From assembly GCF_013839515.1 (NCBI RefSeq), contig NZ_JACDNQ010000007.1:81090-115758 (forward strand): 34,669 nucleotides of DNA, written 5' to 3'. Numbering within the stretch: the first letter of the stretch is position 1; every line of letters begins with the position of its first letter. The translations under genes and the position numbers were made by a program. Positions 2,869 through 9,811 of the stretch are shown piece by piece. The DNA is from Natronomonas salinimetallica (GTDB lineage Archaea; Halobacteriota; Halobacteria; Halobacteriales; Haloarculaceae). The notes under the pieces are model-generated. The model made no database searches. It was not told the DNA's origin and was given only the letters and a program-made list of their open reading frames with translations.

Positions 2869-3242
2869 CGACGCGGAGAGGTGGGTAGCCGGGTCGGCAC
2901 CGGTGAGGCGTTACCCGCGCCGTGTTTTTATAAGAGAGCCCGAGAGCTGTTCGAATAGGTTTCCAACGGAGCCGGTGGCTCGATTTTGATTCCTCCTGCC
3001 CGATGCCAGCGGCGCGTATGACGCCGCACGCCCTCCGTCCTCGCCAGTGCCCTTTCCCTCGCCCACCCTCCCCTCGCACGCCCTCGATTTCGATGATGAC
3101 GGTCGATTCCTCGCGCGCCGAGGGGTGTCCAGTGCGCCGAGCTGTGCCCGCCGCTGTTGGACTCCCTCTCACGACACGCCGCCCTCGCCGGGGCGGCGCG
3201 GGCGGCTGGCTGTGTCACCAGGCTGACGCGCCCTCGCTCGCG
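2869..3242. other. Gene-poor spacer with a strong promoter-like element and short hairpin
   Basis: No convincing gene is seen. TTTTTATAAG at 2925-2934 is a good archaeal TATA box on the plus strand. A GAGCC-GGT-GGCTC hairpin at 2969-2981 followed by GATTTTGATT lies just after the expected transcription start (about 2957). The rest (about 3000-3240) is GC-rich, arginine-coding in every frame and looks non-coding. It ends abruptly where a YHS domain frame begins, so the backbone/cassette junction may lie near 3243. Confidence 0.45.
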
Positions 3243-3383
3243 CTCACGTGTGCCGAGTGCAACAAGACTGTCGATTCTGAGGGGAAGACGAGTCGTATCG
3301 GTGGAGAGATCTATCATTTTTGTTTCTCATCGTGCCAAAGTCAATTCGAAGAGCGACATCAGCGTCTCGAAGAAAGAGTGTAG
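3243..3383 (+). pseudogene. YHS/TRASH metal-binding domain stub lacking its own start
   Basis: The last 46 codons before the TAA read as a small YHS/TRASH zinc-ribbon-like domain: a CAEC pair, then GGEIYHFCFSSC (Cys-x3-Cys after an aromatic Tyr-His-Phe), then a charged helix ending QRLEERV. TRASH/YHS domains bind soft metals such as Cu or Hg in sensors, permeases and ATPases. Codons upstream of 3243 are in the same frame but encode an Arg/Pro-rich string with no family resemblance, and no ATG or GTG lies close to the domain. The possible start codons are at 3093 or further upstream. I therefore read it as a 5'-truncated remnant at the left edge of the copper cassette. It could still be expressed as a 97- or 126-residue fusion from the promoter at 2925. 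Confidence 0.5.
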
Positions 3384-3476
3384 CGCTGGCACCGGTTTGG
3401 AACCGAAAGTAAACACCGCTGATTACCCACACTATCCAAGTAGAAACGCACCTAACGGAGTAGCCCCTATAGTATA

Positions 3477-6104
3477 ATGATGAAAACACGCACCGCACAT
3501 CTCGACATCACAGGGATGACCTGCGCCAACTGCTCGGGGACAGTTGGCGATGCCCTGGAGTCACTCGACGGCGTCGTCGAGGCGAACGCCAATTTCGCCA
3601 CGGACGAGGGCTCCGTCGAGTACGACCCTGACGAGGTATCGCTCGCAGATATCTACGAGACGATCGAGGACGCCGGCTACGGTGCGGTGTCGGACACGGT
3701 GACTATAGGCATCTCCGATATGACCTGTGCCAACTGTGTGCAGACGAACGAGACCGCACTCGAGAACACGCCGGGTGTTATCGCGGCCGAGGCAAACTTC
3801 GCCACCGACGAAGCGCAGGTCAGGTACAACCCCGCGGACACCTCACTCGACGCACTCTACGACGCTATCGAGGACGCTGGGTACTCGCCGGTTCGTGAAG
3901 ACGGCGACAGCGGTGAATCGGGTGCAGATGCTCGGGACGCTGCACGACAGGGCGAGATTCGAAAACAGCTTCGACTGACGCTGTTCGGAGCCGCGCTGTC
4001 GGCCCCGATGCTGTTTTTCCTCGCAGAGAAGTTTCTGCTCGGCGGGGGAATTCTCCCGGAGACGGTCCTCGGCGTCGAATTCGGGTGGGTCGAGTTCCTG
4101 CTGGCAACACCCGTTCAGGCCGTGCTCGGCTGGCCGTTCTACAAGAACTCGTACAACGCGCTGGTCAACAACAGGCGCGCCAACATGGACGTTCTCATCG
4201 CACTGGGTTCGTCCACTGCATATTTCTACTCCGTTGCAGTACTTGCCGGACTGATCGCGGGGAGCCTGTACTTCGATACTGCCGCGCTCATCCTCGTATT
4301 CATCACGCTTGGCAACTACCTCGAAGCCCGCTCGAAAGGGCAGGCTGGCGACGCCCTTCGGAAGCTCCTCGAAATGGAGGCCGAGACGGCCACCCTCGTC
4401 GACGAGGACGGCAACGAGACGGAAGTATCACTCGAAGACGCCACCGTCGGCGACCGCCTGAAGGTCCGTCCCGGCGAGCAGATTCCGACCGACGGCGTCG
4501 TCGTCGATGGGCAAAGCGCCGTCGACGAGTCGATGGTCACCGGCGAGTCAGTCCCCGTCGAGAAAGGCGAGGGCGACGAGGTCGTCGGCTCGACGATCAA
4601 CGAGAACGGCGTCCTCGTCGTCGAGGCGACGAAGGTCGGTGCGGACACGGCCCTCCAGCAGATCGTCCAGACGGTCAAGGAAGCCCAGTCGCGCCAACCC
4701 GACATCCAGAATCTGGCGGACCGTATCTCGGCATACTTCGTCCCAGCAGTCATCGCGAACGCGTTACTGTGGGGCGCTGTGTGGTTCCTCTTCCCCGAAG
4801 CGCTCGCCGGACTCGTCGAGTGGCTCCCGCTCTGGGGAGCGGTCGCCGGCGGACCAGTCGTGGCTGGTGGCACCGTCTCAGTCTTCGAATTCGCGCTCAT
4901 CGTCTTCGCGTCGTCCGTGCTGATTGCCTGTCCCTGTGCGCTGGGGTTAGCAACGCCGGCTGCAACGATGGTTGGGACGACGATCGGTGCCCAAAACGGC
5001 GTCCTGTTCAAGGGCGGTGACATCCTCGAACGCGCGAAAGACGTCGACACGGTCGTCTTCGACAAGACGGGTACGTTGACGAAAGGCGAGATGGAGCTGA
5101 CTGACGTCGTCGTCTTCGACGGTGACGGCCAACCTGTCGCGGACGGTGGGGATCCGGCAGCCGACGGCGGAGCGCTAACTGCACGCGATCGTCTCGGTGA
5201 GGACGACATCCTCCGATTCGCGGCGGCGGCCGAAAGTGGAAGCGAGCACCCGCTTGCGAGGGCTATTGTCGATGGAGCCGAAGCCCGTGGTATCGACGTG
5301 GCCGACCCGGACGACTTCGAGAACGTCCCTGGCCATGGCATTAAAGCGACCGTCGGTAACAGCGAGGTGCTGGTCGGGAATCGGAAGTTGCTCCGGGACA
5401 ACGGGATCGACCCCTCGCCCGCTCAGGAGACGATGGAGCGCCTCGAGAACGAGGGGAAGACGGCGATGCTCGTCGCCCACGTGCCCGCTGGCACGGACGA
5501 GGGCAAACCCGTCGGTGTGGTCGCTGACGCCGACACGATCAAAGAAAGTGCGACCGAGGCCGTGAGTCAACTGCAGGAGCGTGGCCTCGACGTGATGATG
5601 ATTACCGGTGACAACGAACGGACTGCTCGTGCCGTCGTCGAGCAGGTCGGCATCGATCCCGAGAGCGTCCGTGCAGAGGTGCTCCCCGAGGACAAATCCG
5701 ATGCCGTCGAGGCCATCCAGGACGAAGGTCGCAAGGCAATGATGGTGGGCGACGGCGTCAACGACGCGCCCGCACTCGCGGTCGCCCACGTTGGGACCGC
5801 CATCGGGAGCGGGACGGACGTCGCCATCGAAGCTGCGGACGTGACGCTAATGCGCGACGACCCGCTCGACGTGGTGAAGGCCATCCGTATCTCAGACGCG
5901 ACACTCCAGAAGATCAAACAGAACCTCGTGTGGGCGCTTGGTTACAACACGGCGATGATCCCGCTGGCCTCGCTGGGACTCCTCCAGCCCGTGCTGGCTG
6001 CCGGGGCGATGGCGTTCTCGTCGGTGTCGGTGCTGTCGAACAGCCTCCTGTTCCGCCGGTACACCCCCGACCACGACTACAAACTACTCGGGAGGTTCCG
6101 GTAA
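3477..6104 (+). CDS. copA: Cu+-exporting P1B-type ATPase (CopA)
   Basis: An 875-residue P1B-1 ATPase that pumps Cu(I) (or Ag(I)) out of the cytoplasm. Two N-terminal heavy-metal-associated domains carry GMTCANC and DMTCANC. The transmembrane CPC motif is Cys485-Pro-Cys487 in [12 protein letters not shown]. The phosphorylation site DKTGTLT has its Asp at residue 529, the nucleotide-binding SEHPLARAI motif follows, and [10 protein letters not shown] starts at Gly758. The last two membrane helices contain GYN and [14 protein letters not shown], matching the Tyr-Asn and Met-Ser-Ser copper site of the P1B-1 subgroup, which favours copper over zinc or cadmium. The length is typical. Two adjacent ATGs (3477 and 3480) are both possible starts. 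The gene is followed after 126 bases by a metal permease gene on the same strand, and a YHS stub precedes it. Confidence 0.93.
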
Positions 6105-6111
6105 GTTGTCC

Positions 6112-6180
6112 CCGCAGGGCGATTCATCCCCACCCTACTCGCTCCCGTTGGTCGATCCTTGAGAGTGGGGGCTTCTCGCC
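6112..6180. repeat. Hairpin-bearing segment resembling an IS200/IS605-type element end
   Basis: Just after copA the sequence runs GATTCATCCCCACC, then a 24-base loop, then GAGTGGGGGCTTCTCGCC. CCCCAC pairs with GTGGGG, and the stem extends by two base pairs past one mismatch. The order TTCATCCC, hairpin, GGG-TTCTCGC resembles the ends found downstream of TnpB/OrfB genes of the IS200/IS605 superfamily in haloarchaea, from memory. No transposase is present, so this would be a solo end or remnant. It may also act as a transcription terminator for copA. Confidence 0.35.
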
Positions 6181-6230
6181 CAATCCGCTTAAGAACAATT
6201 GACAAAACAGATAGCTGCGATAGTCTAGAT

Positions 6231-7634
6231 ATGCAAGCCGCCCTCGTCGACGGAATCCTCGAGTCGCTGCGGATCGGCGTCGGTTTCCTCTGGACCGCCG
6301 CATGGGCGATCATCATGGGGCTCGTCATCACGAGTCTCGTACAGGTCTACGTCTCGAAGGAGCGGATGGCCCAGATCCTCGGAAATGATGACCTGAGTGG
6401 ACTCACCAAAGCAACGGTGTTCGGCGCCGCGAGTAGCGGCTGTAGCTTCGGGGCCGTCGCTATTGGGAAGGGGCTGTTCAAGAAGGGTGGTCACGTCGTG
6501 AACGTCCTCGCGTTCATGTTCGCCTCGACGAATCTCATCGTTGAGCTCGGTCTGATGATCCTGATCCTCCTCGGCTGGGAATTCTTGGTAGCGGAACTCC
6601 TCGGCGGCATCATCCTCATCGCCGTGATGGCGCTGCTCGTCCACGTGACGCTCCCCGAGAACCTCTTCGACGAGGTGCGGCAGGAACTGAACGAACGCGA
6701 TCAGGAACACGGTGTCACCGAGGATCCGACCTGCGGGATGGAAGGCAAAGACGAGTACTCGCTGACGACCGACGGTGGCGAGACGCTAAAGTTCTGCTCG
6801 GAAGGCTGTATGGAAACCTATGAGCAGGGGACCGCAAGTAGCGGCGGATGGCGCGATGAACTGCTCTCGTGGGGGGGCTGGTACAAAGTCGGAAACCAAT
6901 ACCGCAAGGAGTGGTCGATGATCTGGAAGGACGTCGTCGCGGGCTTTCTCATCTCGGGGTTCGTCATCGTGTTCGTCCCACAGTGGGTGTGGAACACACT
7001 CTTCCTCCAAGGCGATGGGTTGCTTGTCAGCGCGGAGAACGCGGTTATGGGCGTCACCGTCGCGGTTCTCAGCTTCGTCGGCAGCATGGGCAATGTCCCG
7101 TTCGCCGTCGCGCTCTGGGGCGGTGGGGTCAGCTTCGCGGGCGTTATTGCGTTCGTCTACGCCGATCTCATCACCATCCCCGTCCTGAACGTCTATCGGA
7201 AGTACTACGGCTGGAAGGTGATGCTGTACATCCTCGGAATCTTCTTCGTAACGATGGCCTTCACGGGCTTCCTCATGGAGTTGCTATTCGACGCCTTCGG
7301 CATCGTCCCGGATCTGGCCGGTGGCGAGACGGCGACCGAACAGACGTACTTCGAGCTCAACTACACCTTCTACCTCAACATCGTCGCGTTCGCCCTCTCT
7401 GGCTTCCTCCTCTACGTGTATCGACGTGGCCTCGGTGCTCCCGGCCAGTACCGCGATCCCGTCTGTGGGATGCGAACCGACGACAGTAGGCCGAGTCTCA
7501 CCCACGATGGCGAGACGTACTACTTCTGTTCGGACCGATGCAAGCGATCGTTCGAGAAGCACCCCTCCGAATTCGCACAGCAACACCCACCGGTCTCGGA
7601 GGCGGGAGCTTCCCAGAGCCATGAACATCACTGA
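6231..7634 (+). CDS. DUF318/SO_0444-type metal permease with two YHS domains
   Basis: A 467-residue membrane protein. Two homologous membrane halves contain AASSGCSFGAVAIG (Cys71) and VGSMGNVPFAVALWGGG (Met286), the re-entrant-loop motifs of the ArsP/DUF318 permease superfamily. A YHS domain beginning DPTCGM (residue 165, metal cysteines in FCSEGC) sits in the loop between the halves. A second begins DPVCGM (residue 409, FCSDRC) and is followed by a tail ending SHEHH. The family has been linked to Cu/Zn or organo-arsenical efflux. Given its neighbour CopA and soft-metal YHS ligands, copper or a similar ion is the likely cargo, but this is inference. I chose ATG 6231 over 6159 because the 24 extra residues are polar and unlike a transporter start, and CTTAAG at 6187-6192 could be its TATA box. 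Confidence 0.82.
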   Translation: MQAALVDGILESLRIGVGFLWTAAWAIIMGLVITSLVQVYVSKERMAQILGNDDLSGLTKATVFGAASSGCSFGAVAIGKGLFKKGGHVVNVLAFMFASTNLIVELGLMILILLGWEFLVAELLGGIILIAVMALLVHVTLPENLFDEVRQELNERDQEHGVTEDPTCGMEGKDEYSLTTDGGETLKFCSEGCMETYEQGTASSGGWRDELLSWGGWYKVGNQYRKEWSMIWKDVVAGFLISGFVIVFVPQWVWNTLFLQGDGLLVSAENAVMGVTVAVLSFVGSMGNVPFAVALWGGGVSFAGVIAFVYADLITIPVLNVYRKYYGWKVMLYILGIFFVTMAFTGFLMELLFDAFGIVPDLAGGETATEQTYFELNYTFYLNIVAFALSGFLLYVYRRGLGAPGQYRDPVCGMRTDDSRPSLTHDGETYYFCSDRCKRSFEKHPSEFAQQHPPVSEAGASQSHEHH

Positions 7635-7710
7635 ACGCCGCATCGTGATCTCGAGTTTCGCGGCCAAACAGCCCCAAATATTGCGTTTGTCAATCACAAC
7701 TGGTACAGCG

Positions 7711-7770
7711 ATGTCTCACAAACCCTCGCGTATGGGCAAGTACCTCGGCGGATCCAGGTGGGAGAGATGA
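7711..7770 (+). CDS. Possible 19-residue leader peptide overlapping the regulator gene
   Basis: A short frame from ATG 7711 encodes 19 residues (MSHKPSRMGKYLGGSRWER) and stops at TGA 7768-7770. The stop overlaps the ATG of the next gene in an ATGA arrangement. An AT-rich AAATATT (about 7675-7681) lies 30-36 bases upstream and could be its TATA box. The peptide is basic, unlike its acidic surroundings. It may be a translation-coupling leader for the membrane regulator, or an accidental frame. No homology is recognisable. Confidence 0.25.
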   Translation: MSHKPSRMGKYLGGSRWER

Positions 7771-8360
7771 ATCGACGGCGAGCCGATATAGTAGTCGGTG
7801 GCTTGGTCGCTGCCGTCCTTATCGTCGGCGGGGTGCTCAGCTGGCAAGCGTACCAGCAACAGCAGGCCTTCGACCAGATGGGATCGATGATGGGCACGTC
7901 AATGGGAGCGGTTCATGGAACGAATCCGCTCTGGTACGTCCTCGGAACCCTCCTCGTCTCGGCTGTCATCGGTGGAGGGTATCTCGTGGTTCGGGACGAA
8001 CTCAGTAGCACAGACGTACCCGATCGCTTACAGATGGAGATGGCGGATCCGACCGATCCAGAGAGTGCCGAATCACCGGAGGGGGAAACCCAATCAGCGG
8101 GGGACATCAATCCAGAGGCTCAGCCACAGGCTCGCGTATTAGACCTCTTGCCGGATGATGAACGCCGTATCCTCGAACCGGTTCTTTCCTCGCCCGGCAT
8201 CACACAGATCGAACTCAGGGATCGCTCGGACTTCTCGAAGAGCAAGGTCAGTCAGACGGTGAGCGCTCTCGAGAAGCGTGGCCTGCTGTACCGCGAGCGC
8301 CAGGGGCGGACGTATCGTATCTATCCGAGCGACGACCTACAGGAGAAGCAAATGAACTAG
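7767..8360 (+). CDS. Membrane-anchored winged-helix regulator with Met/His-rich external loop
   Basis: A 197-residue protein. Residues 8-26 and about 55-75 are hydrophobic membrane segments, and the N-terminal MNRRR predicts both termini inside. The short external loop holds Met38, Met41, Met42, Met46 and His50, a spacing reminiscent of Cu(I)/Ag(I)-binding methionine motifs. After an acidic, Pro/Glu-rich linker (about 80-120), residues 125-190 form a MarR/TrmB-like winged helix: LLPDDERRILEPVLSS, KSKVSQTVSALEKRGLL as the recognition helix, and a wing ending GRTYRIYP. I infer a one-component sensor in which external copper is read through the membrane to control the cassette; the family itself is not characterised as far as I know. 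I use ATG 7767 because AGGTGGG just upstream matches a Shine-Dalgarno sequence. GTG 7758 is an alternative in-frame start. Confidence 0.75.
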   Translation: MNRRRADIVVGGLVAAVLIVGGVLSWQAYQQQQAFDQMGSMMGTSMGAVHGTNPLWYVLGTLLVSAVIGGGYLVVRDELSSTDVPDRLQMEMADPTDPESAESPEGETQSAGDINPEAQPQARVLDLLPDDERRILEPVLSSPGITQIELRDRSDFSKSKVSQTVSALEKRGLLYRERQGRTYRIYPSDDLQEKQMN

Positions 8361-8456
8361 CGGGCCATTTCCGCCGATTCAGAACCATTCATCGGAGTCG
8401 TAGGTGCTGAAGTTGAACCAAGCGATGGTCGTATGACCCTCCTTCAGCGCGAGGCC

Positions 8457-8733
8457 TATACTCGCCGACCACGAAAACGAGGGAAATGACTCCCACTCTT
8501 GGAGCGCTCGCGAGCTGTGCCGGTCAGCTACCGGGCACCAGCGATGACGGTGGGCGTGAGGTAACGCCACGCTCGACAGTCATGTCCGAGCCAGATAGCT
8601 CCGTCAGCCTCACCGCGGGGTCCGGGACGGTTCGGCCAGCCCCCGAGACCTCGACGACTAACTGGATGTACGGGGATCAATTTCCGGGACCAGAATTACG
8701 GAAAATTCGAGGAGAAAGCCTCGCCGTTCACGG
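8457..8733 (+). pseudogene. Multicopper oxidase N-terminal fragment
   Basis: The frame from about 8457, with its first ATG at 8486, contains a lipobox-like LASC followed by a Gly/Thr/Asp-rich linker. It then has LTAGSGTVRPAPETSTTNW and YGDQFPGPELRKIRGESLAV. The QFPGPELR...GE pattern is the start of the first cupredoxin domain of multicopper oxidases (laccase/CueO type). The homology stops after ESLAV, where the HWHG copper ligands should follow about 15 residues later, and two hairpins begin at that point. No copper-ligand histidine motif is present, so the product cannot be active. Multicopper oxidases often accompany CopA in copper-resistance loci, so this was probably part of the same cassette. 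The twin-arginine signal is not visible. Confidence 0.6.
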
Positions 8734-8737
8734 CGTT

Positions 8738-8785
8738 AACGAGAGCGAAGCTCTCGTTCGTACACCAGAACGCTTCGCGTTCTGG
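8738..8785. repeat. Two adjacent perfect 9-bp hairpins
   Basis: AACGAGAGC-GAA-GCTCTCGTT (8738-8758) and CCAGAACGC-TTC-GCGTTCTGG (8765-8785) are both perfect stems with three-base loops, separated by six bases. They lie where the multicopper-oxidase homology breaks. Such hairpins occur at ends of IS200/IS605 elements and in haloarchaeal palindrome-associated elements. I see no transposase, so a small non-autonomous element or scar is the likeliest reading. Confidence 0.6.
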
Positions 8786-8971
8786 GGACGGAGATGAAGC
8801 CGACAACACCGTCACGATCGCCGGAATTAAGCCCCAGACAGCGTATCTGTGGGCGAGTACAACGGGCAAACCCTGGCGGTTGGATTGGGGTCCGCCCGGA
8901 CGGCGAAGGATCCGACGCGGCGGCGATGATCGCGAAACACGCCGCTCGACCGTGTTCCGGCCGATACCGAA

Positions 8972-9811
8972 TCAGTAGTACTGGCGGTCGACGTTCCGGA
9001 CGGCTTCGATCCGTTTTTCCATCGGCGGGTGGGTCGCAAAGAGCCGCTGAAGCGCGGAACGGTCGCCGCCGGAGATACACAGCGCGGAGACGTTGTCGTC
9101 CAACTCGGCGTCGCCCCGCCCGTTGGCGGTCGAGATCTTGCCGAGGGCCCGCGCCATCGCGTCGCCGCCGACGTGGCCGGCCGCGTCCGAGTCGGCGACG
9201 TACTCGCGGTATCGAGAGATGGCGAGGACGAACACCATTGCGACCATCTGGACGATGACGCTCGCGAGATAGCCCAATACGATGTTTCCGATGCCGCCGT
9301 CGCGCGAGAAGGCGATGACGAAGTACGCCGCCAGCCCGAGCATCGAGGCGATCGATTGGCCCATCACCATCATGACCACGTCGCGGTTGTCGACGTGGGC
9401 GAGTTCGTGGGCGAGCACTCCCTCGAGTTCGTCGTGATCGAGCAATCGGATGAGCTGCTCGGAGACGACCACGACGCCCGCGCCACGGCGTCCGACCGCG
9501 AAGGCGTTCGGGACGCCCATGTCAGCGACCATCAGGCGGGGCTTTTCGAGATCCATTTCGTCGGCGATCCGCTCGACGGAACGGTGAATCTCCGGGTACC
9601 GATCCGCCGGCATGTCCTCGGCACCGGAACTCCACAGCGCGATCTTCTTGCCGAGGACGTACTGGAAGCCGGCGAAGCCGACGGTCCCGAGGAGGACGAT
9701 CGGGATCCCGACGCCGAAGGCCTCGACGGCGACGATCGCGACGAGGGCGTAGAAGGCAAAGAGAACGCTCCCGACGACGGCCATCCTGGCTTTGAGTCCG
9801 ACGTGTCTCAT
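8972..9811 (-). CDS. htpX: HtpX-like membrane zinc metalloprotease (M48)
   Basis: A 279-residue integral membrane endopeptidase. Two N-terminal hydrophobic segments (about 10-52) precede the active site HELAH (His135, Glu136, His139). Two further membrane segments follow, and REYVADSDAAG supplies the third zinc ligand, a glutamate. The C-terminal HPPMEKRIEAV is conserved in HtpX. In bacteria HtpX clears misfolded membrane proteins; the archaeal role is presumed similar. The frame opens at ATG 9841, but I chose the ATG at 9811 because GGGAGAGGT lies just upstream on the minus strand and MRHVGLKARM resembles HtpX starts. The 10 extra residues are the alternative. It is divergent from the dapAB pair and unrelated to the metal cassette on its other side. 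Confidence 0.9.
   Translation of the reverse strand: MRHVGLKARMAVVGSVLFAFYALVAIVAVEAFGVGIPIVLLGTVGFAGFQYVLGKKIALWSSGAEDMPADRYPEIHRSVERIADEMDLEKPRLMVADMGVPNAFAVGRRGAGVVVVSEQLIRLLDHDELEGVLAHELAHVDNRDVVMMVMGQSIASMLGLAAYFVIAFSRDGGIGNIVLGYLASVIVQMVAMVFVLAISRYREYVADSDAAGHVGGDAMARALGKISTANGRGDAELDDNVSALCISGGDRSALQRLFATHPPMEKRIEAVRNVDRQYY

Follow-up and report, generated by a model that had tools for sequence, protein, structure and literature searches.

Most of what is known about copper sensing in archaea concerns cytoplasmic regulators of the TRASH type. CadC/ToxR-like regulators are membrane-bound, one-component proteins, and CusS-type systems sense copper and silver on the extracytoplasmic side of the membrane. 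Here we describe a cassette in a 34,669-nucleotide stretch of Natronomonas salinimetallica DNA (contig NZ_JACDNQ010000007.1, positions 81,090 to 115,758; hereafter the window), from a haloarchaeal host genome of 2.78 Mb in 30 contigs. The cassette comprises three intact genes on the + strand: copA, a permease gene with two YHS domains, and a gene for a membrane-anchored helix-turn-helix (HTH) protein that we call HTHm. Two of the closest described systems are bacterial or haloarchaeal: in Halobacterium, VNG1179C, an Lrp-type regulator with a TRASH domain, controls a copper ATPase and chaperones (PMC3551603), and in Shewanella the permease SO_0444 is required under Cu/Zn stress (PMC3219624). 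We consider it fairly probable that the cassette is a copper/silver detoxification island that arrived by horizontal transfer and has since been partly eroded; in it, CopA and the permease would export metal and HTHm would serve as sensor-regulator.

An earlier note, made from the sequence alone, had read the genes as an ATPase, a two-YHS permease and a membrane winged-helix protein lying in one direction, which domain matches and intact frames confirm. CopA contains two HMA domains, an E1-E2 ATPase domain and a hydrolase domain, scores 543.7 bits against TIGR01511 (cut-off 397), and carries all P1B-1 signatures: CPC in transmembrane helix 6 (TM6), YN as GYN in TM7, MxxSS as MAFSS in TM8, and N-terminal HMA domains with CXXC. 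The permease exceeds the gathering score of PF03773 (ArsP_1; 198 vs 32.3 bits) and has matches in 74 of 146 Haloarculaceae genomes, close copies being 77-91% identical. Ratios of nonsynonymous to synonymous substitution (dN/dS) against relatives are 0.08 for copA, 0.09-0.10 for the permease and 0.14-0.20 for HTHm, values that point to purifying selection on all three genes. The note's view of the island as imported is supported: plasmids from many genera carry close relatives, the locus lies at a rearrangement breakpoint (see below), and the G+C content at third codon positions falls, as the note's proposed composition check would have it, below that of the genes flanking the cassette within the window (copA 0.78, permease 0.80 and HTHm 0.68, vs 0.85-0.89).

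HTHm carries a winged helix-turn-helix (wHTH) of the DUF7343/MarR type behind two predicted membrane helices; its match to PF24034 (37.3 bits, gathering score 27.6) is shared by all 22 members of HTHm alignment A1. In an AlphaFold2 model (predicted local distance difference test, pLDDT, 67.4), a pair of long helices is followed by a disordered linker and then by the winged helix. Because the N-terminus bears RRR, the positive-inside rule would place it in the cytoplasm and the loop between the helices outside. This loop, MGSMMGTSMGAVHG, contains residues M42, S45, H50 and G51 that are invariant among 22 aligned sequences, which share 55-91% identity with the window protein. Across 49 homologues (effective number about 15.6), conservation is 1.0 at each of these four positions,.87 at M38,.94 at M41 and.84 at M46, and mean conservation is.94 in the wHTH vs.41 in the linker.

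The genes around HTHm were compared in 37 loci located by HTHm alone, with neighbours of the gene types searched for counted within about 10 kb. These loci are not independent, since the island is mobile, and the neighbour sets overlap between gene types. The permease lies immediately 5' of HTHm in 22 loci (a few copies are damaged), with a gap of 131-132 bp in 19 of the 22, and at least one copper-type neighbour is present in 35. Near HTHm we found c4 (30 loci), small Met-rich SHOCT proteins (28), multicopper oxidase (20), DUF302 (19), other metal pumps (15), halocyanin (10) and a copA orthologue (5). The c4 gene encodes a small, secreted-looking protein of ~98 amino acids with no Pfam match (e.g. 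locus L154:16918-17211). The gene order that the note had offered as a check of a functional trio is thus recurrent for permease and HTHm; only a minority of loci have copA linked to them.

Homology to an HTH-TRASH-copA module on a Halobellus plasmid covers positions 3238-6104 at 89% DNA identity, and homology to a permease-HTHm-oxidase module from Haloparvum starts at 6187-6190 and runs to 8700 at about 87%. The best copA relatives, on Halobellus, Haloarcula, Natronorubrum and Natronosalvus plasmids (about 90%), span the TRASH-copA half only, and other relatives have only permease, HTHm and oxidase. Several plasmids or chromosomes have all four genes in the order HTH-TRASH, copA, permease, HTHm, copA and permease being mostly separated by other DNA. 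Judged by these alignments, two modules that are usually separate have been fused in the cassette. Separate conserved elements upstream of the permease and of HTHm speak against a single transcript starting at copA and in favour of two or more promoters or operators. Of the note's proposal that everything here works as one system, what stands is the permease-HTHm unit; the whole is two joined modules with conserved upstream elements of their own. The motif AAYTG, which has a constant position in 22 of 52 permease-upstream and 38-39 of 49 HTHm-upstream sequences, was considered as a shared operator of the two genes and set aside, as orthology alone explains its fixity; it remains a lead.

We considered whether the two halves might be independently regulated units brought together by chance, copA being functionally unlinked from permease and HTHm. 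The separate upstream elements fit this account, as do the scarcity of copA orthologues near HTHm (5 of 37 loci) and the nearest relatives of copA, which lack the permease (matches of 51% coverage). We nevertheless regard it as rather unlikely: the order HTH-TRASH-copA-permease-HTHm recurs (L079/L145, L076/L154 and L083), and in two other Natronomonas genomes (G125 and G128) an HTHm homologue of ~42% identity, with no permease, directly follows HTH-TRASH and copA. This recurrence suggests shared physiology, even if not a single transcript. In the rows with the distant HTHm (loci L212 and L213), a small open reading frame seems to end just 5' of HTHm.

HTHm resembles CadC/ToxR-like regulators in joining a DNA-binding domain and a putative membrane-embedded sensor in a single protein; it differs from them in its two-helix hairpin, its short Met/His loop and its DUF7343/MarR wHTH, and has no folded outer domain. 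With CusS-type sensors it shares a proposed reading of metal outside the membrane through Met/His residues, but it is a single archaeal protein with neither kinase nor response regulator. We infer that HTHm, as a one-component regulator, senses Cu(I)/Ag(I); the note's idea that the Met-rich membrane protein is the sensor is supported by loop conservation and gene context. It is a serious possibility, if short of probable, that HTHm is the first of a family of one-component sensors in haloarchaea, anchored in the membrane, reading Cu(I)/Ag(I) at a short outer M-x2-MM-x3-M-x3-H loop and acting directly on DNA, and complementing the cytoplasmic HTH-TRASH regulator so that intact islands would have sensors both inside and outside. 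The literature searched, in which subscription journals were mostly outside coverage, yielded no mention of DUF7343 and no description of such a membrane sensor. The distant Natronomonas homologues (~42%) retain a Met-rich loop, GMMSQMMGTMPGMDP. One 38%-identical homologue (L215) lacks the Met loop entirely, as might be expected if the loop were structural and HTHm answered to a cue other than copper or silver, such as another soft metal or envelope or redox stress. Such a cue is unlikely, given that H50, M42 and S45 are invariant among the members 55-91% identical to the window protein and that the neighbours of HTHm are overwhelmingly of copper type.

Several points weigh against a copper/silver detoxification island under HTHm control. 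The ligand of the HTHm loop could be a different soft metal, or the loop may bind no metal at all, and the conserved upstream elements are only presumed targets of HTHm. The window copA may be redundant, since the host genome holds further P1B ATPases with copper-type motifs. The permease falls far below the cut-off of the SO_0444 family (NF033936; 73.1 vs 300 bits), a solved-structure relative is not detectable by sequence, and its own model is poor (pLDDT 55.9 from an 18-sequence alignment), too weak for a fold search. What it shares with the SO_0444 Cu/Zn efflux permease is a weak similarity overlapping the PF03773 region and linkage to copper genes; in contrast to that family it is haloarchaeal and has two YHS domains. 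By analogy with this distant relative, and from its copper context, the permease probably exports soft metal alongside CopA, and the role of metal relays that the note gave to its YHS domains is plausible. A haloarchaeal COG0701 permease, its orthology to the window permease unverified, is up by log2 3.49 at 0.5 mM silver (PMC10694973). Elsewhere in the host genome, at contig C4:23219-27331, a P-type ATPase copy whose match is broken by an in-frame TGA is probably a broken gene.

Erosion of the island is evident at both ends. On the left, the note had seen a 5'-truncated YHS domain; the best match is instead PF24273 (TRASH_HVO_1752_C; 74.8 bits vs a cut-off of 27), so that the stub is what survives of an HVO_1752-type regulator, its TRASH domain, with the DNA-binding part gone. 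Nucleotide similarity to an intact gene for an AsnC-type HTH-TRASH protein (Halobellus DFY28, 196 amino acids) begins at 3238 with 89% identity, at codon ~150, so that the last 46 of 196 codons are retained and the N-terminal ~150, encoding the AsnC-type HTH and linker, are gone. The stub keeps CxxC and CxxxC and has lost one further conserved cysteine (FCC to FCF). A functional mini-protein was rejected: there is no haloarchaeal-like coding start, the upstream frame is Arg/Pro-rich, and dN/dS is raised to 0.33 (a weak value, from 46 codons). As in the HVO_1752/VNG1179C circuit (PMC3551603), copA is preceded by a TRASH domain, and intact relatives have HTH-TRASH and then copA; the difference is the missing DNA-binding half, which was not found elsewhere in the host genome. 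A full HTH-TRASH paralogue is present on contig C7 and could act in trans for the truncated regulator.

On the right, the note's 3'-truncated multicopper oxidase is indeed there, with an internal deletion as well. Relative to an intact 468-residue oxidase it has lost 44 bp in the twin-arginine (Tat) signal region and breaks off at 8700, with 79% identity across residues 18-101. It matches the N-terminus of the CopA/CueO-type oxidase that adjoins HTHm in intact islands; unlike an enzyme with three cupredoxin domains and copper ligands, it is an N-terminal start only, of which about 70 codons remain in the window, and it is surely non-functional. The missing part was looked for elsewhere in the host genome and not found. 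Both stubs, which the note had taken for working parts, look like decay. That the whole cassette is a relic without present function is highly improbable, for although regulator and oxidase are truncated and both edges carry repeats, copA, permease and HTHm retain full-length frames at dN/dS 0.08-0.20, pairwise values that partly reflect selection in other lineages. On contig C14 of the host genome (L222:5579-7457), c4, SHOCT, DUF302 and SHOCT genes with a ~46-residue HTHm fragment form a second copper-island remnant.

Mrp (ending at 2868) and HtpX (3' end at 8972) adjoin the cassette as the note had stated, with intergenic DNA of ~370 and ~270 bp, partly repeated, in between (Table 1). The two strong hairpins noted at the right edge (~8738-8758 and 8765-8785) belong to a dispersed Natronomonas repeat, for which a miniature inverted-repeat transposable element or an insertion-sequence end remnant are candidate natures; no Rfam family was found in the window. 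A simple empty site between Mrp and HtpX was rejected, as the two are not neighbours in relatives: there, a ribosomal-protein gene comes after Mrp, and genes other than these lie downstream of HtpX. That ribosomal-protein gene, identified by sequence as S13/rpsM, stands directly after Mrp in 17 of 18 sampled relatives. Because the host's own copy is on contig C26, the island lies at a rearrangement breakpoint.

Table 1. Features of the cassette and its edges, in window positions.
Feature	Position	Strand	Evidence
Left-edge intergenic DNA	2986..3246		80% and 94% matches in one related genome (G121); ends at the regulator break
HTH-TRASH copper regulator remnant, only C-terminal TRASH domain left	3241..3383	+	PF24273, DNA alignment
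copA, P1B-1 Cu(I)-transporting ATPase, intact	3477..6104	+	TIGR01511, motifs, dN/dS 0.08
Junction of copA and permease modules	6105..6187		Homology to first module stops at 6104, to second starts at 6187-6190
Conserved element CTTAAGAACAATTGACAAAACAGAT..., just 5' of permease start, likely promoter/operator	6188..6230	+	Alignment of 52 loci
Intact PF03773 permease; its two YHS domains lie at about 6723-6830 and 7455-7583	6231..7634	+	Domain matches, conserved copies, dN/dS
Conserved element CAATCACAACTGGTACAGCGATG in permease-HTHm gap, candidate operator/promoter	7691..7713	+	About -69 from HTHm start, most of 49 loci
HTHm: membrane hairpin, cytoplasmic linker, DUF7343 winged helix	7767..8360	+	Pfam, alignments, model, dN/dS 0.14-0.20
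HTHm extracytoplasmic Met/His loop, proposed Cu(I)/Ag(I) site (M38, M41, M42, M46, H50)	7878..7916	+	Conservation
Multicopper oxidase remnant, 3' part gone	8486..8700	+	Alignment to intact oxidase in locus L211
Dispersed intergenic repeat with both hairpins, right edge of island	8708..8910		Partial copies in 14/20 Natronomonas genomes

Starting from the gene identities, modules, breaks, conservation and selection described above, we infer the substrates, transport direction, sensing and DNA targets of the detoxification island as follows. CopA would pump Cu(I) out at the expense of ATP, and the double-YHS permease would be a further exporter, moving Cu(I)/Ag(I) or a complex of the metal, its YHS domains binding metal. 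Metal on the outer Met/His loop of HTHm would change the membrane hairpin and alter DNA binding by the cytoplasmic winged helix, so that HTHm would control the permease and its own gene and, in intact islands, also the downstream oxidase and small Met-rich proteins. In its history, an HTH-TRASH-copA module would have been joined to a permease-HTHm-oxidase module, after which the DNA-binding part of the cytoplasmic regulator and the oxidase were lost.

The cassette itself is an ordinary mobile copper-resistance island, and HTHm is an uncharacterised membrane regulator whose partner, at nearly fixed spacing, is an uncharacterised double-YHS permease. The locus illustrates the fusion of resistance modules from plasmids within a genome and their later trimming. 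If the proposed role of HTHm is true, a DUF7343 wHTH family would gain a function that haloarchaeal genetics could test cleanly, and a widespread membrane-bound sensor-regulator would add an outward-facing route of metal sensing in archaea.

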